Below, one piece after another: positions 1,607-8,143 of a stretch of 64,000 bases of DNA (positions within the stretch are counted from its first letter, which is position 1; every line of letters starts with the position of its first letter). The stretch is from contig NZ_JAKRGC010000007.1 of assembly GCF_022347745.1 (NCBI RefSeq), positions 1 to 64,000 on the forward strand, in the 5' to 3' direction. The notes beneath the pieces are model-generated. The model saw only the letters and a list, made by a program, of their open reading frames with translations. It ran no database searches and had not been told where the DNA came from. A program made the translations under genes and the position numbers. Origin of the DNA: Streptomyces sp. OfavH-34-F (GTDB lineage: Bacteria; Actinomycetota; Actinomycetes; Streptomycetales; Streptomycetaceae).

Positions 1607-2578
1607 TCAGCCGACCGGGCCCGTGAGCACCGAGGTGAAGACGTCCTTGCCGTCCTGGCGGCCGGTGACCTCGAGCGTCACCATGTTGTGCGCCTCCCGC
1701 TCCACGCGGGTCACCTCGATCCAGCAGGGCCGGTCGAGTTCGGCGTACTGGTGGAAGTGGTTCGCGGCGGCGGCCGGGACGAACGAGCGGGGCGCCATCA
1801 CGGCGCAGGCCGCCTGGCGGGCCGCTTCGAGCAGGACCATGCCGGGGACGTGGTCGCCCTTGTGGTCGAAGAGGATCGGGTGGTTGAGGTCCGGGGTGAG
1901 CAGCCAGCGCGGATGCCGGCCGGTGCCGGGCGCGCCGACTGCGGAGAGCACCACGTCCGTGAGGAAGGTGCGCCCGACCATCGACGGCGGCAGCAGGGTG
2001 CGGTCCGGGTACGTCTCGGCGGCGGCGGGCGGCTGGGCGGCGCGGGTCTGCCGTAACCGGTTGTAGACGGCCGGCGGGATCACGGAGATCTGCCCGGTGC
2101 CGTTCGCCATGGGCAGGCCGCTGCGGCGGAGCGCGAACTCGAACGCCATACGGCTGGCCACGCCCCTGCGCCGGACGACCTCGGTACACCGGGTGTCGAG
2201 GTCGAAGTCGGTCGGGCCGGACGCGATGCGGAGACTCGTGGTGTCCGTGGTGTAGGTGATGCTCGACATCACAAACTTGTGACCGAGGGGTACTCCCAAT
2301 TCCACGTGCGAGACGTAGATTCCTGCTTGGCGGAACGTTTCCGCCACCTGGAGCGGGTCGTGGCTCGCTCCGTCGAGACTGCGGAACATGGTGTGGGCGC
2401 GGGGCCATTGGCCGGTGAGCGAGAAGTTCGCCCCGTCCTGGGTGTCGCACCCGGTGAGGAATACCTCGGCGACGGAGTCGCGGTGCACGTACTCCTTCGC
2501 GACCGTGGTGGTCAGCCGCGGTGCGGCCGGCGGTGCGGTTCTGGCTTCAGCAGTGGTGAGACTCACGGTGGCCCCCAT
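1607..2578 (-). CDS. afsA: AfsA/ScbA-family gamma-butyrolactone synthase
   Basis: 323 aa, typical for the AfsA family. Two hot-dog-type AfsA repeats are visible (about residues 25-155 and 175-315), with family signatures such as KEYVHR, GHKFVMSS, HPILFDHKGDHVPGM and NHFHQYAELDRPCWI. AfsA proteins join a beta-ketoacyl chain to dihydroxyacetone phosphate to begin synthesis of the diffusible GBL signal in the cytoplasm. The ATG at 2578 is preceded by a weak ribosome site. The upstream promoter (2615-2642) carries an ARE-like operator between -35 and -10, so the neighbouring receptor probably represses it. It is divergent from the receptor and near a SARP gene, the usual GBL island. A few AfsA homologues act as regulators rather than synthases; sequence alone cannot exclude that. 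Confidence 0.9.
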   Translation of the reverse strand: MGATVSLTTAEARTAPPAAPRLTTTVAKEYVHRDSVAEVFLTGCDTQDGANFSLTGQWPRAHTMFRSLDGASHDPLQVAETFRQAGIYVSHVELGVPLGHKFVMSSITYTTDTTSLRIASGPTDFDLDTRCTEVVRRRGVASRMAFEFALRRSGLPMANGTGQISVIPPAVYNRLRQTRAAQPPAAAETYPDRTLLPPSMVGRTFLTDVVLSAVGAPGTGRHPRWLLTPDLNHPILFDHKGDHVPGMVLLEAARQAACAVMAPRSFVPAAAANHFHQYAELDRPCWIEVTRVEREAHNMVTLEVTGRQDGKDVFTSVLTGPVG

Positions 2579-2614
2579 CTTGCATCTTGAAACCTGCGTT
2601 CGGCGACGCCACTT

Positions 2615-2642
2615 AAGATACGGACCTACCGGTTTTTTTCAA
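2615..2642 (-). promoter_or_regulatory. afsA promoter with ARE-like operator
   Basis: On the minus strand TTGAAA (2642-2637) and TATCTT (2620-2615) are separated by 16 bp. The spacer and flanks read as an ARE-like site: CGGT followed by a T-run on one side and a GATACGGACC-type arm on the other. A bound GBL receptor would block RNA polymerase directly. Confidence 0.55.
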
Positions 2643-2810
2643 TCGGCCCAAAGGTAAAGGATTTACCAAGCGTTGACCAGTTTGCTTGAACATCTCATTC
2701 CACTTCAAGGCTTCTGGTCAGTAACTTCGCGCTCGATCGCTGAGTAAATCGGGGCATATGCCGCGTAGATCGTCCAGGCCGCACGGTCCGGCGGCGAAGG
2801 CCGCCGTAGA

Positions 2811-2838
2811 AAAAAACCTTTCGGACGGTTTCCTTTGG
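2811..2838. promoter_or_regulatory. ARE-like site 2 (weak)
   Basis: AAACC and GGTTT arms separated by 8 bp, with A-rich and T-rich flanks. The right half CGGTTTCCTTT resembles the ARE half-site. Confidence 0.35.
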
Positions 2839-2967
2839 TGGACTGAGGTCTAGTCCTCCGAGAGGATGGCTGGAGAAACCAACTACTTCTGTGACCTGGG
2901 GCCCCCGGTGTCACACGCGCCTGGGCAAAATGATCAGCCTGCCCCGGGGCGTTGCACGTCGCAGTGC

Positions 2968-2996
2968 TAAACCAACCAGCCGTGCGGTTTACTGGG
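2968..2996 (+). promoter_or_regulatory. ARE-like site 3 upstream of the receptor gene (weak)
   Basis: GCCG-TG-CGGT core with AACC/GGTT arms, ending about 20 bp before a GATAAT hexamer at 3015-3020. The position would allow autorepression of the receptor. The match to the ARE half-sites is only partial. Confidence 0.35.
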
Positions 2997-3074
2997 GGTC
3001 AGTAGGGTCAGCAGGATAATCCAGGGTGAATCGGACGGCGGTACGCCGGGCCCGTGCCCCGCCAGGAGGAGGAC

Positions 3075-3662
3075 ATGATGGTCAAGCAGGCGCGAGCGGC
3101 TGTGACACGTCAGGCTCTCATCTCGGCCGCCGCGGAGGTGTTCGGTGCCGACGGGTATGCGATGGCAACGCTACCGACGATCAGCGGCCGGGCGGGGGTG
3201 AGTTCGGGCGCCCTCCACTTCCACTTCCCCAACAAGGAGGCCCTGGCCTCCGCCGTGGAGAGTGCCGCCGCGGAATCGGCCCTCGCGCTGACCGAGGAGA
3301 GCGCGCAGGCCGAGGGGGGCGGCCGGCTCCAGACACTCGTCACGGCGGTGCGCCGGCTGATGGACGCGGTCGCCGGCGATCCGGTCGTGCGCGCGGGCTT
3401 CCGGCTGAGCGGCGACCCCTCCCGCAAGAGCGAGGCCAGGCTGCACGACTGGTGGTACGAGTGGGTGCGCGACGCCCTCGCGGAGGCGCGCAGCGACGGG
3501 GAGCTGGCGGAGGGCGTCTCGGCCGAGGACGCGGCGGTGGTCATCGTGGCGGCGACGCTCGGTCTGGAGACCCTCGGCGCGGCCGACCCGTACTGGCGGT
3601 CCACGGAACGAGTGGACCAGCTGTGGTCGTTCGCGCTGCCGCGGCTGAGCCGCGCGGAGTAG
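3075..3662 (+). CDS. Gamma-butyrolactone receptor-type TetR regulator
   Basis: 195 aa. The N-terminal TetR helix-turn-helix (about residues 10-55) reads RQALISAAAEVFGADGYAMA, then a recognition helix and the GALHFHFPNKEAL motif typical of ScbR/BarA/TylP-type GBL receptors. The C-terminal ligand domain has a VVRAGFRLS segment and a Trp-rich LHDWWYEW stretch as in this subfamily. It is rich in Asp/Glu, more like genuine acidic receptors than basic pseudoreceptors; pI was not computed. ATG 3075 or 3078 follows AGGAGGAGG; 3075 was chosen. It probably represses afsA, the SARP gene and itself through the ARE-like sites and leaves DNA when GBL binds. It is flanked by afsA and the SARP gene. Confidence 0.88.
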   Translation: MMVKQARAAVTRQALISAAAEVFGADGYAMATLPTISGRAGVSSGALHFHFPNKEALASAVESAAAESALALTEESAQAEGGGRLQTLVTAVRRLMDAVAGDPVVRAGFRLSGDPSRKSEARLHDWWYEWVRDALAEARSDGELAEGVSAEDAAVVIVAATLGLETLGAADPYWRSTERVDQLWSFALPRLSRAE

Positions 3663-3876
3663 CGGGCCAGGCGTGAGCCCCCGGCAGCTGCCGCCCGCCG
3701 GGGCGCGGCAGCAAAACAATCCGTATGGTCTGGTTGTGGGAGTGCCTCCCGGGGGTGACAGAAGGGTCAACGCCCGCGCGGATGCCCAAGTTTGATGCAT
3801 CAGGCACCTTTTACACCCTCGCTCTTGAGGATCGCTGAGGCCGCGCACCAGCGGGAGCGGGTGGATTGGTTGGGTA

Positions 3877-3905
3877 TTGACATACCGTCTGCGCTGTTTT
3901 TAAAT
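3877..3905 (+). promoter_or_regulatory. SARP promoter with overlapping ARE-like operator
   Basis: A perfect TTGACA (3877-3882), 17-bp spacer and TTAAAT (3900-3905) make one of the best promoters in the window. The spacer holds ACATACCG...CTGTTTTT, an imperfect ARE, and GGTAT-TGAC-ATACC overlaps the -35. This predicts direct repression of the SARP gene by the GBL receptor. The rest of 3663-3965 holds no gene. Confidence 0.6.
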
Positions 3906-3965
3906 CGGTTGGGTCAGCAACAGTTCCGGGCGGCCCGTGGTGGTCCGGAGATGCGGGGAGACGGC

Positions 3966-4781
3966 GTGGACATCGACGTACTCGGCACGCTCGACGTGCG
4001 GGAAAAGGGCACCTCGATCGCACCGACCGCGCCCAAACCCCGGCAGGTGCTCGCCCTGCTGGCGCTGCACGCCGACGAGGTGGTGCCGGTGGGCACCCTC
4101 ATCGAGGAGCTGTGGGGGAGCGAGCCGCCGCGCAGCGCCCGCCCCACCCTGCAGACGTACATCCTGCAGCTGCGCGAACTCATCACCGTCGCGCTCGAAC
4201 GGGACGGCGACGAGACCCGCACCGCCAAGGACGTCCTGCTCACCGTCCCCAGCGGCTACTTACTCCGCAGCGGCGAAGGAACGCACGACGTCCGGGAGTT
4301 CGAGCGCCTGGCCGGGATGGGCTACCGGGCCATGGACGCCGAGAACTTCCCCGAGGGCGCGCGGCTGCTGCGCGAGGCCCTCGCCCTGTGGACCGGACCG
4401 GCGCTCGCCGACGTCCACACCGGGCCCCACCTGGAGACACAGCTCAAGCGGCTGGAGGAGAGCCGGCTGTGTGCGCTGGACCAGCGCATCGAGGCCGACC
4501 TCAGACTGGGCCGCCACCGCGAACTGCTCTCCGAACTGACCGTGCTGCTCAGCCGCTACTCCACCCACGAGAGCCTGTGCGGGCAGTACATGCTCGCGCT
4601 CTACCGCTCCGGACGGCGCGGTGAGGCGCTGGACGCCTACCAGCGGCTGCGCTCCACGCTCGTACGCACCCTGGGCCTCGAACCCTCGCCCGCGCTGGCC
4701 AAGTTGCAGCGCTCCATCCTCCTGGCCCGCACCGAGGGCGTGCCGGCAGCAGGCGGCGCCCGGCTCGCCGAGATCGGCTGA
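3966..4781 (+). CDS. SARP-family pathway activator (OmpR-type HTH plus BTAD)
   Basis: 271 aa from GTG 3966, chosen because GGGGAG lies 5 bases upstream; ATG 3951 is the alternative. Residues about 1-95 form the winged-helix DNA-binding domain (VDIDVLGTLDV, then PKPRQVLALLALHADEVVP and LIEELWGSEPPRSA). Residues about 100-255 form the bacterial transcriptional activation domain, a TPR-like repeat ending YRSGRRGEALDAYQRLR and LGLEPSPALAKLQ. The length fits small stand-alone SARPs with no ATPase domain. SARPs activate antibiotic gene clusters; none lies in this window, so its targets must be elsewhere, most simply leftward or further right. Control by the GBL receptor is predicted from the ARE-like site in its promoter. 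Confidence 0.9.
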   Translation: MDIDVLGTLDVREKGTSIAPTAPKPRQVLALLALHADEVVPVGTLIEELWGSEPPRSARPTLQTYILQLRELITVALERDGDETRTAKDVLLTVPSGYLLRSGEGTHDVREFERLAGMGYRAMDAENFPEGARLLREALALWTGPALADVHTGPHLETQLKRLEESRLCALDQRIEADLRLGRHRELLSELTVLLSRYSTHESLCGQYMLALYRSGRRGEALDAYQRLRSTLVRTLGLEPSPALAKLQRSILLARTEGVPAAGGARLAEIG

Positions 4782-4809
4782 CGCACCCGCCTGCCCGGCC
4801 CGGACCCGA

Positions 4810-4847
4810 GGGCTGAGGAACATCCGTGTCAGATCGTGCGCGCTAAG
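4810..4847 (+). repeat. Left terminal inverted repeat of the Tn3-type element
   Basis: 38 bp beginning GGGCTGAGG and ending GCGCTAAG, the Tn3-family form (GGG...CTAAG/TTAAG). The core matches the right end with one mismatch. A small hairpin AGGGCT-GATT-AGCCCT follows at 4855-4870. Confidence 0.7.
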
Positions 4848-4936
4848 CCGCCTCAGGGCTGATTAGCCCTTTGACCTGGGGTGATGGAGCGTCGGAGCCT
4901 TCGTGGGTCGTTGTTGTCGATCTTCGGAGAACTGCT

Positions 4937-5262
4937 GTGTCGGTCGAGTTCCTGGCGGATGAGCAGGCGGCCCAGTAAGGGGCGTTTTGCGAGGTTCCCT
5001 CGCGGGCGGAGCTGGAGCGTTACTTCTTCCTGGACGACGCGGACCGTGAGGCGGTGCAGGCCAGGCGCCGGGTCTGTAACCGGCGCGGGTTCGCGGTCCA
5101 GCTCACGAGCGTGCGGTTCCTGGGCCTGTTCATGCCGGACCCGCGGTAGGTACCGGCGGAGGTGGCCGAGTACCTGGCCGAGCAGCTGGAGATCGCGGCT
5201 CGGCCGGTACTCCTTCCAGCTCCCCGACCTGCCTGGCGGCCTGCGGCCCCTGCGTGACAAGC
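4937..5262 (+). pseudogene. Tn3-family transposase remnant with internal deletion and stops
   Basis: From GTG 4937 the frame reads VSVEFLADEQAAQ, stop (TAA 4976), GAFCEVPSRAELERYFFLDD, then FAVQLTSVRFLGLFMPDPR, stop (TAG near 5150), VPAEVAEYLAEQLEIA. This is the N-terminal DUF4158 region of Tn3-family TnpA. From about 5195, in another frame, LGRYSFQLPDLPGGLRPLRD matches the TnpA C-terminus. Most of the protein (about 850 residues in the family), including the DDE catalytic region, has been deleted. It lies 90 bp inside the left terminal repeat. Confidence 0.8.
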
Positions 5263-5324
5263 CCCCCCGAGGCCGGATAAAGGCACCAGCAGACACGACA
5301 TTAGCCACAAATAGTCAAACCGCA

Positions 5325-5362
5325 AAGAGTTCTTCGCGAAGGTCTATTTGCGAAGAACTCTT
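5325..5362. promoter_or_regulatory. 13-bp inverted repeat, likely operator of the ArsR-like gene
   Basis: AAGAGTTCTTCGC (5325-5337) and GCGAAGAACTCTT (5350-5362) are perfect reverse complements with a 12-bp spacer. A second palindrome CTTCGCGAAG (5332-5341) overlaps the left arm. TTGCGA (5348-5353) and TACGGT (5369-5374) look like -35 and -10 elements, and the ATG is 7 bases after the -10, so the transcript is probably leaderless and the operator covers the -35. Confidence 0.6.
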
Positions 5363-5381
5363 GCGGACTACGGTGTCCCGC

Positions 5382-6047
5382 ATGAGTGATGCTGTGGAGA
5401 GGCCAGACGGCCCGAACGTGGGAGAAGACTCGGTCGTCCTGGATGCCAAGGGGCTGCGAGCCCTGGCGCATCCGGTGCGCGTGCAGGTGGTCGGGCTGCT
5501 GCGGAAGTACGGCCCGTCGACGGCCACCCGCCTCGCGGAGCGGTTGGGCGTGAACTCCGGTACGGCCAGCTACCACCTCCGGCAGCTCGGCGCGGCCGGC
5601 TTCGTCGAGGAGGACACCGAACGGGGCAACGCGCGAGAGCGTTGGTGGCGTTCGGTGCACCGGACGATCTGGTTCAACGATCCGGAGCTGGCCGAACGGG
5701 AGCCCGAGGCCGCACTGGCCTATCAGCAGTCCGTCGCCGCCATCTACACCCTGCGCACGCAGCAGACCCTGAACGGGCTTCAGACGATGCCCCGCGCATG
5801 GCGGAACACGTTCGACATGAGCGACTGGGCCCTGCGGCTCACGCCGGAGGAAGCCGGTGACCTGTACCGGGAGCTGGCGGACGTCATCGCGCGCTACCGG
5901 CGCGACGCACCGGAGACGGCGGCAAGCGCCCCCGAGGGAGCCGAACGGGTCGCCGTAATCACACAGATTCTGCCCGAACTGGACGTGCCTGCCGCGTCGC
6001 CGATCCCTTCCCACCCCCAAAGCGAGGAAGGAGACCCGACATCATGA
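5382..6047 (+). CDS. ArsR-like winged-helix regulator
   Basis: 221 aa from ATG 5382; a longer frame exists upstream but runs through the transposase remnant and is not coding. Residues about 22-95 form an HTH_20/ArsR fold: LRALAHPVRVQVVGLLRKYG, ATRLAERLGVNSGTASYHLRQL (recognition helix) and a wing ERGNARERWWR. The C-terminal 120 residues are helical, of the kind seen in ArsR-like regulators paired with MFS pumps. No metal-binding Cys cluster is visible, so an organic ligand is more likely than a metal. Its stop overlaps the MFS start by 4 bases (ATGA), so the two are translationally coupled. It likely represses its own leaderless promoter. Confidence 0.82.
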   Translation: MSDAVERPDGPNVGEDSVVLDAKGLRALAHPVRVQVVGLLRKYGPSTATRLAERLGVNSGTASYHLRQLGAAGFVEEDTERGNARERWWRSVHRTIWFNDPELAEREPEAALAYQQSVAAIYTLRTQQTLNGLQTMPRAWRNTFDMSDWALRLTPEEAGDLYRELADVIARYRRDAPETAASAPEGAERVAVITQILPELDVPAASPIPSHPQSEEGDPTS

Positions 6048-7408
6048 CCGACGACGCCTCGAAGGCCGGCGGCATACCCGGCGAGAAGTCCTTACGGCCG
6101 CTGGGCGGGGTGCTGGCGGCCATGGCCGTGTCGCTGACCGGCACTCGGATCTCCGTTGTGGCACTGCCCTGGTTCGTCCTCGCCACGACCGGCAGCGCCA
6201 CCCAGACCGGACTGGTCGCCTTCTGCGAGATGGCTCCCTACGTGATGGTCAAGGCGTTCACCGGACCGCTGGTGGACCGGATCGGCCCCCGGGCCGTCTC
6301 CTGGACCACCGACCTGGCCAGCGCGACCGCCGCCGCCGCGATCCCCCTGCTCCACACTCTTGACCTGCTCTCCTTTCCCCTTCTGCTGGTTCTCGTCGCG
6401 CTGATCGGCGCGGCCCGAGGGCCCGGCGACCTGGCCAAAGAGGTGATGGTCCCGGAGGCGGCTGAGCGCGGCCGAGTACCGCTGGAGCGCGCCACCGGTC
6501 TGTCCGGCGTGGTCGAGCGGCTCGCCTCCACCGTCGGCCTGGCGGCCGGCGGATCCCTGGTGGCATTGCTCGGTCCCCTGACCGGACTCGCCGTCAACGC
6601 AGGATGCTTCGCCCTCGGATCGGTGATCATCAAGCTCGCCCTGCCTCGCGGCATGGGGCACGCCGCCGAGGAAGCTCCTTCCCGAACCGGGGAGACAGAA
6701 CCGGGCTACTGGCGGCGATTCGGCGAGGGCTTCACCTTCCTGCGCGGCGAGCCGCTCCTGCTCACGGTCATCGTCATGGTCGGCATCACCAACCTGTTGG
6801 ACTCAGCATTCGCCTCGGTGCTCGTACCCGTCTGGGCCAGGGAGTCCGGCAACGGGCCGGCCGCGATCGGCCTGATGGGCAGCGTAATGGGGGCCGCGGC
6901 GGCAGGCGGAAGCTTGATCGCCGCGATGGTCGCACACCGACTGCGGCGGCGGATGGTAGTGCTCACCGGGTTCCTGCTGGCCGGGGCACCGAGGTTTCTG
7001 GTCCTCGCCTTCGACACCCCGCTGTGGACGGTACTGGCCGTCTTCGCGATCAGCGGGTTCGGCGCCGGCTTCGTCAACCCGGTGTTGGGGGCCGTCCTCG
7101 TCGAGCGGGTGCCGCGCCGAATGCTGGGCCGGGTCAACGCGCTCGGTGACTCACTGTCCTGGGCCGGCATCCCCCTCGGCGGACTGCTCGCCGGGGCGGC
7201 GGTGACCGCTGTCGGACTCGTGCCGGTGCTGTTCGCCGGGGGCAGCGCATACTTCCTCACCACAAACCTGGCCGGACTACGGCAGGAATGGCGCCAGATG
7301 GACGGGACGCGCGGGCGGGGCGCCGCAACCAGGAACCGGACGCGGTGCTCGGGGACCGCGGCTACGACCTCGACAAGTACCGCCGGCTCGTCCGGGGCCT
7401 CGGTGTGA
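6044..7408 (+). CDS. MFS transporter with a C-terminus running into an IS remnant
   Basis: 454 aa, about 12 hydrophobic segments over residues 15-420, no signal peptide. It resembles MFS exporters of the MFS_1/MFS_3 type (GTRISVVALPWFVLATTGSA, LVDRIGPRAVSW, FGAGFVNPVLGAVLVERVPRRMLGRVNA). It would export a small molecule across the cell membrane and is coupled to the upstream regulator by an ATGA overlap. After about residue 425 the frame becomes hydrophilic and Thr/Ser/Arg-rich (GRGAATRNRTRC...). This is an out-of-frame reading of the transposase remnant that begins near 7319, so an insertion has replaced the natural C-terminus. All transmembrane segments appear intact, so the protein may still work. 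Substrate unknown. Confidence 0.82.
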   Translation: MTDDASKAGGIPGEKSLRPLGGVLAAMAVSLTGTRISVVALPWFVLATTGSATQTGLVAFCEMAPYVMVKAFTGPLVDRIGPRAVSWTTDLASATAAAAIPLLHTLDLLSFPLLLVLVALIGAARGPGDLAKEVMVPEAAERGRVPLERATGLSGVVERLASTVGLAAGGSLVALLGPLTGLAVNAGCFALGSVIIKLALPRGMGHAAEEAPSRTGETEPGYWRRFGEGFTFLRGEPLLLTVIVMVGITNLLDSAFASVLVPVWARESGNGPAAIGLMGSVMGAAAAGGSLIAAMVAHRLRRRMVVLTGFLLAGAPRFLVLAFDTPLWTVLAVFAISGFGAGFVNPVLGAVLVERVPRRMLGRVNALGDSLSWAGIPLGGLLAGAAVTAVGLVPVLFAGGSAYFLTTNLAGLRQEWRQMDGTRGRGAATRNRTRCSGTAATTSTSTAGSSGASV

Positions 7409-7610
7409 ACCGCTGATCGCCCGCCGGGGCACCGAACACGGCTCCGGGCTCGGTACTCAACGCTGGGTGGTGGAGCGCGCGTTCGCACACCTGCACGGGT
7501 TCCGCCGCCTGCGGATCCGCTGGGAGATTCGTGACGACATCCACGAAGCCTTCCTCCGCTGGGATGCGCGCTCATCTGCTGGCGACGCCTGTCACAGCCG
7601 GTCCGAGCTC
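7319..7610 (+). pseudogene. IS5-family transposase C-terminal remnant
   Basis: The pieces read GRRNQEPDAVLGDRGYDLDK, then YRRLVRGLGVNR and a stop (TGA near 7414), a frame change, then LIARRGTEHGSGLGTQRWVV, ERAFAHLHGFRRLRIRWE and IRDDIHEAFL, and after a second frame change GCALICWRRL. These are the last third of the DDE transposase of IS5/IS112-like elements common in Streptomyces, including the Glu of the catalytic triad in WVVERAFAHLHGFRRLRIRWE. The 5' part and the terminal repeats are missing. It truncates the MFS reading frame. Confidence 0.8.
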
Positions 7611-7996
7611 TCGCTCTCCCGCAGTAGCCATTCCCTGACCGAAGGAGAACGGTCAAGGAGCTGTCTGACCTGCATTCCCTCTTCGCGTGAGGTCACCTTC
7701 GGCAGCGGGACGAAGTCGTCGGGGATCACGTCCAGCATGCTCACCACACGGCCTCCCGTACGCAGAGCGATCAGCAGTTCCCACCGCACGTGATCGGGAA
7801 CGTCAGGGCGGTGGGACAGGGTGTGCCACATGGCCGGCCAGAGATAGTGGGTGTCGCCGGGCGCCACATTCGCCCGCACCCACGTTGGATCCAACCGCTG
7901 GCTCAGGCCGAGGACTTCCGCCCGCTCCTCCAGCCGGAACAGCGAGGCCGAATCGATGACCTTCACCTCGCGCGGCAGCGGCCGCTCAACGTTCAT
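7592..7996 (-). CDS. Conserved-looking protein of unknown function
   Basis: 134 aa, soluble, no signal peptide or membrane segment. It begins MNVERPLPREVKVIDSASLF and contains WPAMWHTLSHRPDVPDHVRW and LDVIPDDFVPLPKV. I do not recognise a domain. The composition (hydrophobic-acidic alternation, several Trp) looks like a real folded protein, and codon use matches the neighbours. It lies between the IS remnant and the right terminal repeat, reads opposite to the MFS gene, and is therefore a passenger of the Tn3-type element. Its 3' end overlaps the IS remnant slightly, so the C-terminus may have been altered by that insertion. Confidence 0.6.
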   Translation of the reverse strand: MNVERPLPREVKVIDSASLFRLEERAEVLGLSQRLDPTWVRANVAPGDTHYLWPAMWHTLSHRPDVPDHVRWELLIALRTGGRVVSMLDVIPDDFVPLPKVTSREEGMQVRQLLDRSPSVREWLLRESESSDRL

Positions 7997-8062
7997 CGTT
8001 CCATGCTTCCCGACAGCGAATTACGTTGGGCACCCGACCCCAAAGAGTCATTCCGTCAGGAG

Positions 8063-8102
8063 TTCTCAGCGCACGATCTGACACCGATGTTCCTCAGACC
8101 CT
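8063..8102 (-). repeat. Right terminal inverted repeat of the Tn3-type element
   Basis: The reverse complement begins AGGGTCTGAGGAACATCGG and matches the left end over 28 of 29 bases, diverging only at the inner edge (GCTGAGAA against GCGCTAAG). Confidence 0.7.
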
Positions 8103-8143
8103 GACCCGTGCCCAGGCGGTCCACGGGCGCGCCGCGGGACGGT

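Follow-up and report, generated by a model that had tools for sequence, protein, structure and literature searches.

A probable decayed, non-autonomous derivative of the Tn4556 group carrying an ArsR–MFS gene pair in Streptomyces sp. OfavH-34-F

The transposon Tn4556 of Streptomyces fradiae has been resequenced. According to the available part of that report, it has 38-bp inverted repeats (IRs), 5-bp target duplications and a cargo slot; tnpA ends at position 3184, and the gene for a 324-amino-acid TnpR of the phage-integrase family starts at 6419 of 6625 (PMC6403206). The same part states that the element transposes and that its cargo consists of methyltransferase and isoprenyl diphosphate transferase genes (PMC6403206). 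In our study, a stretch of 64,000 nucleotides from Streptomyces sp. OfavH-34-F (contig NZ_JAKRGC010000007.1; hereafter the window) was analyzed, and the element at 4808–8102 very probably descends from a Tn3-family transposon of the Tn4556 group and has decayed to a non-autonomous state, with a cargo that likely still works. The overall picture given by the sequence-only reading of this DNA, a Tn3-family element whose tnpA is deleted and which carries a regulator–MFS pair (MFS, major facilitator superfamily), was supported, and decayed Tn4556-group derivative is the more precise name. Miniature Tn3 derivatives have Tn3 ends without a working transposase, and the mobile insertion cassettes of Xanthomonas are reportedly passenger-only Tn3 derivatives, with genes flanked by Tn3 ends and no functional transposase. 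Compared with both, the window copy keeps pieces of tnpA, and its movement in trans is put forward here as a proposal.

The family ends measure 38 bp, from GGGG to GCTAAG, as read from relatives. On this frame, the element spans exactly the positions given above, and the limits first proposed were right to the base. The bases at 4813–4841 and the complement of 8069–8097 were identical at 28 of 29 positions, which repeats the earlier count, and the GGG...CTAAG form noticed at the left end matches the GGGG..GCTAAG ends of the group. Moreover, the end pattern with up to three mismatches was matched twice in the window and not at all in 100 shuffles. The GACCC reported on both flanks was present as exact copies directly outside both ends. 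The GC insertion of the left IR was absent from all of the 83 other ends; most of these were fetched by an exact pattern over positions 7–34, and the informative parts of the comparison are the positions outside it and the insertion itself. The locus thus has the marks of a non-autonomous Tn3-family derivative, namely two family ends in inverted orientation, a 5-bp duplication and an enclosed region that lacks a complete transposase. The locus might instead be not one transposon, with two solitary ends of separate events flanking the gene pair by chance. Many fetched stretches did show a single end, though most of those were cut at 8 kb. The opposite orientation of the two ends, the exact duplication at the family-defined ends and the tnpA start at its usual distance from the left IR make such a coincidence extremely improbable.

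Between the ends, only N- and C-terminal pieces of a Tn3 TnpA remained, just as the bare sequence had suggested; their extents are listed in Table 1. In the relatives L009 and L012–L016 (L labels denote fetched stretches), the DNA identity was 82–92% over 4810–5198 and 85–93% over 5198–5262. In L014, about 2711 bp separate the two pieces, and about 1 bp of common sequence was seen by eye at the deletion junction at 5198 of the window. The DDE domain (residues 607–995 in L014) was almost wholly gone, and only the two ends of the gene were left. Furthermore, the resolvase gene (tnpR) and its flank were absent from the window copy. In this state, the element is incapable of autonomous transposition, and a TnpA supplied by another element would probably act poorly on its altered ends. 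The transposon is most likely dead or nearly dead.

Table 1. Positions of the features of the element and its flanks in the window.
Feature	Position	Strand	Description
Left target-site duplication GACCC	4803–4807		Exact match to 8103–8107, directly outside the family-defined end
Left IR	4808–4847	+	40 nucleotides: 38-bp family end lengthened by a 2-nucleotide GC insertion before CTAAG; position 2 is A
tnpA N-terminal remnant	4937–5198	+	Codons 1–86, two in-frame stops, DUF4158 match
tnpA C-terminal remnant	5198–5262	+	Residues 992–1012 recognised (1018-amino-acid relative); abuts the N-terminal piece through a deletion of about 2.7 kb
Operator-like palindrome	5325–5362		16-nucleotide arms, 15/16 paired, in front of arsR
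TANNNT –10-type box	5369–5374	+	7 nucleotides before the arsR ATG; leaderless-type start
ArsR-type regulator	5382–6047	+	221 amino acids; HTH_20 E 8.6e-13, HTH_5 E 2e-9; plasmid homologues
MFS exporter	6044–7408	+	4-nucleotide overlap with arsR; MFS_1 E 3.9e-30
IS5-type transposase remnant	7336–7592	+	Frame broken; DDE_Tnp_1 E 2.5e-5 for 7413–7586; IS5 annotations under the matches
134-amino-acid gene	7592–7996	–	With the IS5 remnant, a segment common to two Streptomyces plasmids
Right IR	8065–8102	–	38 bp, A at position 1; inner 6 bp are the microhomology to the 134-amino-acid segment
Right target-site duplication GACCC	8103–8107		Directly outside the family-defined end

Whether the termini occur only here had been named as a check, and they do not. 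An exact end-pattern scan with one genome per species gave 64 stretches, 57 of them titled Streptomyces, with two-ended copies bearing target duplications; the pattern was also matched in one viral contig. Fifteen two-ended pairs were assembled from named records, plasmid matches included. OWN_C635 (2/5 duplication bases) was left out of this count, and L009 and L013, with one end found each, were left out of the pair counts. A right end of L009 was searched for and not found, the best candidate having 16 mismatches. Exact 5-bp duplications were present in 10 of the 15 pairs, and two more agreed in 4/5 bases.

The relatives with an unbroken tnpA had the order IR, tnpA, cargo, opposed recombinase and IR. 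Their tnpA has about 1018 codons and starts at element base 127–128, and it ends at 3178–3183 in six single-frame relatives. The recombinase is a phage-integrase-type protein of 324–325 amino acids encoded opposite to tnpA; its gene starts 203–208 bp from the right end in L014–L016, and it was matched in 15/16 other two-ended elements (reference included). Among the members of the group, tnpA is often damaged. Unbroken copies were found in L014, L015, L016, L114+092, L095+103 and L075+081; internal gaps in L096, L117, L061+063, L113, L009 and the own-genome copy; frame breaks in L012, L115 and L116+108; and an insertion in L109+080. No tnpA was matched in L076. In addition, 108 of the 392 genomes searched in the window's genus, its own included, had matches to the window tnpA pieces. 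The L076 element (L076:755–2620, SirexAA-E chromosome) is 1866 bp long and has the two 38-bp ends, flanked by a GGTCC duplication; it had no tnpA or recombinase match and two open reading frames without a Pfam match, and is a possible natural miniature.

The group was similar to Tn4556 in its 38-bp ends, 5-bp duplications, leading tnpA, cargo slot and phage-integrase-type TnpR near the right IR, and the coordinates of Tn4556 and the intact relatives agreed within a few bases. A 34-nucleotide Tn4556 tnpA primer, printed in the available part of the report (PMC6403206), matched 11/16 other elements at 1326–1339 with 2–8 mismatches. In L116+108, it matched at 2984 with five mismatches, while the best chance matches had 11–16. 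The shared layout, coordinates and primer matches suggest that the window element was derived from the Tn4556 group. It differs from Tn4556 in carrying an ArsR–MFS pair and in having lost most of tnpA and all of tnpR. Tn4430 and Tn5401 are likewise Tn3-family transposons with a tyrosine resolvase, TnpI, as the available part of their description states (PMC7157771). In that part, tnpI and tnpA are colinear, whereas members of the Tn4556-type group encode the recombinase at the opposite end of the element from tnpA and in the opposing direction. A literature search on Streptomyces Tn3 cargo, incomplete in coverage, gave no description that was recognised as this group beyond Tn4556. A Corynebacterium siderophore paper, returned by a literature search with the end sequence, was judged unrelated by its listing.

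The regulator–exporter cargo of the window element was uninterrupted. The profile matches agree with the ArsR-like/MFS pair described earlier, and the sequence features of an ArsR–MFS unit were present: an ArsR-type helix-turn-helix (HTH), a palindromic operator and a coupled exporter gene. Among the 20 matches listed, 11 Streptomyces plasmid records, three of which are from S. atratus, held a gene pair with 84–91% identity to the region 5318–7325. In the copies that were compared, the similarity reached no further upstream than the operator. TANNNT-N7-ATG with a palindrome before it was found in 9/9 copies, the weakest palindrome being that of L006 (11/13), and arm changes paired up in L001 and L002. 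The leaderless start claimed from the sequence is thereby supported, though not proved. The ratio of nonsynonymous to synonymous substitution rates (dN/dS), each against six relatives, was 0.20–0.25 for arsR and 0.17–0.23 for mfs. Judging from these sequence features, the cargo is likely still functional, as an exporter under repressor control.

At the 8/8 plasmid loci fetched, the pair occurred without these ends, a situation that the sequence-only reading had named as damaging to itself; the ends and the duplication are not undone by it, and the pair evidently also travels by other routes. In L002:7093–13303 (NZ_CP108542.1), the same ArsR–MFS pair was inside a different Tn3-type element with 53-bp inverted repeats, between a recombinase-family gene (by annotation) and a tnpA with 22% identity. 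No target duplication was seen on reading the flanks of these repeats. The pair thus seems to have entered two transposon lineages.

The cargo slot of the group repeatedly holds regulator–exporter pairs and resistance-type genes, which is a modestly new point, and the ArsR–MFS pair of the window fits this pattern. The intact relative L016 on NZ_CP109253.1 had the same ends and layout, with a winged-HTH gene and an MFS gene in the slot and same-length matches on NZ_CP109388.1 and NZ_CP109536.1. It differs from the window element in its gene pair (34% and 27% identity) and in the presence of tnpA and the recombinase. A MarR/MFS pair was found in L009 (one end only), MarR/EamA in H107–H110 (annotation only) and an MFS gene with no regulator noted in L113. 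FabV enoyl reductase, which can stand in for the target of FabI-type inhibitors, was the cargo of L015 and L075+081, and a SpoIIE phosphatase that of L014 and L109+080. Furthermore, L095+103 from S. fildesensis, an 8.4-kb element with an unbroken tnpA and a GATAG duplication, carried MerB, with a MerR-like neighbour recognised by eye. Other cargo included NmrA-type (L096), SDR (L117), barstar (L012) and epoxide hydrolase (L116+108) genes. The cargo of L115, L061+063 and L076 gave no Pfam match, and the cargo open reading frames of L114+092 were left out of the Pfam scans.

The right-hand part of the element contained the insertion-sequence remnant and the 134-amino-acid passenger that had been noticed from the letters. 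The former could be assigned to the IS5 type, and the protein of the latter had no Pfam or NCBIfam match. The region 7336–8070 was 89% identical to L010, a Streptomyces cavourensis plasmid, and 7345–8018 was 82% identical to a second plasmid, L011. The dN/dS of the 134-amino-acid gene was 0.60 against two relatives. On the left of this segment, the DNA similarity of mfs to the plasmid units ended at 7311–7325, and the last approximately 27 residues of the MFS protein (7325–7408) are encoded by the fused IS5-type DNA. On the right, the plasmid sequence GTTCTTAGCCCC and the family end GGCTTAGCGCAC meet in the window at the common CTTAGC, there now CTCAGC. This shared 6-bp sequence points to an illegitimate join at microhomology, by which the IS5/134-amino-acid segment would have been fused to the right IR and tnpR and the subterminal region lost.

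The element was located directly behind the SARP gene, as stated before; this gene ends at 4781, and a TetR gene on the other side of the element converges on it, so that the element separates the 3′ ends of the two. With this position, it probably interrupts no gene. The AfsA-type, TetR-type and SARP genes at 1607–4781 adjoin the element and resemble a butyrolactone-type regulatory island. Genome G170 keeps the AfsA/TetR/SARP order at 85–88% identity, with other DNA after the SARP gene. Elsewhere in the same genome, contig C635 (G000:C635:2573–20564) had ends 18 kb apart, with tnpA codons 1–415 and 939–1017 separated and a second Tn3-type transposase between them; the recombinase was matched close to its right end. 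A distant partial tnpA was found in C111, and a solitary group end at C66:7220.

Two orders of events were considered for the decayed derivative. In the first, a unit already without tnpA and tnpR was moved here in trans by a related TnpA, as a mobile cargo cassette. The plasmid-type DNA inside the duplicated unit indicates that the IS5/134-amino-acid join, and with it part of the rearrangement, probably preceded landing; copies with an exact duplication and without a whole tnpA also exist, namely L117 and L061+063 (internal deletions) and the L076 element. However, the window tnpA junction was seen in its own genome only (1/392, two candidates scored per genome), and among the matches listed in the 391 other genomes the furthest crossing was 13 bases (G402). 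A single plasmid record covered 80% of this region, in two pieces. Moreover, the own genome had no second copy of the window element, its 638-contig assembly had no intact TnpA of the group, C635 holding an interrupted copy and an unrelated one, and both ends carry changes. In a plasmid search for the same derivatives, the L117 element had one relative at 81% coverage, L096 and L076 had none at 80%, and L009 found only itself at this level. Together, the plasmid and genome searches showed no movement of deletion derivatives, and we regard this order as rather unlikely. The broader proposal is more doubtful still: Tn4556-type elements would be a standing Streptomyces vehicle for small self-regulated efflux and target-bypass genes, with tnpA-deleted copies moved in trans as passenger-only cassettes, in this case out of a linear-plasmid pool to a site beside a SARP pathway regulator.

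In the second order, a full-length element was inserted, and its tnpA, tnpR and subterminal region were deleted afterwards in place. The duplication is intact, the stops in the tnpA remnant and the mutated ends favour decay after the last move, and intact relatives with regulator–MFS cargo exist (L016). However, this order works only if the element already contained the IS5/134-amino-acid plasmid-type segment or acquired it afterwards, and no intermediate was found. Decay in place is a realistic account, with somewhat less than an even chance.

Several points weigh against a decayed Tn4556-group derivative with working cargo. The kinship with Tn4556 was judged by layout, coordinates and one 34-nucleotide primer, and this primer was unmatched in L061+063, L076, L096, L117 and the window, all five of which have lost that part. 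Three of the 15 pairs (L015, L113 and L075+081) had no duplication. The duplication of the window element rests on a single 5-mer, for which a chance match is estimated at 0.2% at approximately 70% GC, without an empty site. This site was sought with the SARP side in 295 genomes and with the joined flanks in 392 genomes (own included; joined-flank matches listed at E ≤ 1e-90); in the 391 other genomes, no listed joined-flank match crossed the junction, and the empty site was not found. The matches ended at the junction on the left or started more than 60 bases past it on the right, because the two flanks are not neighbours in those genomes. The closest SARP relatives, G116 and G170 (88%), had other DNA downstream. 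A weak match of L039, reaching 27 bases past the junction, was judged on reading to be a chance extension. As for the cargo, the C-terminus of the MFS protein is changed, and the best NCBIfam matches of the exporter (2A0121, Tap, EntS, Tet(V) and Mef(A)) were all below the cut-off. Within 5325–5381, the window operator is short of one right-arm base present in all eight plasmid relatives (T in seven, C in L008), which may affect repression, and the selection on the cargo may predate capture.

The decayed Tn4556-group derivative could have arisen as follows. Its ancestor, on a Streptomyces plasmid, would have carried ArsR–MFS in the cargo slot and then gained the IS5/134-amino-acid plasmid segment through the join described above. 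Relatives of the three building blocks lie apart on the 428-kb linear plasmid NZ_CP108566.1, namely L015 (with fabV), L004 (ArsR–MFS) and L011 (IS5/134 amino acids), and assembly in the plasmid pool is therefore plausible. The unit would have been inserted by replicative transposition between the SARP and TetR 3′ ends, duplicating GACCC, and the deletion of tnpA and the mutation of its remnant and of both ends could have occurred before or after landing. The ArsR-type protein is predicted to bind the palindrome over the arsR–mfs promoter and to repress both genes until released by a ligand, and the MFS protein would export that ligand or a related compound.

Non-autonomous Tn3-family derivatives are already known, and what deserves to be followed is the pattern of cargo in the group. 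An unannotated wreck is now linked to a transposon group of Streptomyces that is defined and widespread and has readable ends. The cargo slot of this group, with its regulator–exporter pairs, FabV and, once, mercury resistance, is a searchable route for resistance-type genes between the plasmids and chromosomes of antibiotic producers.

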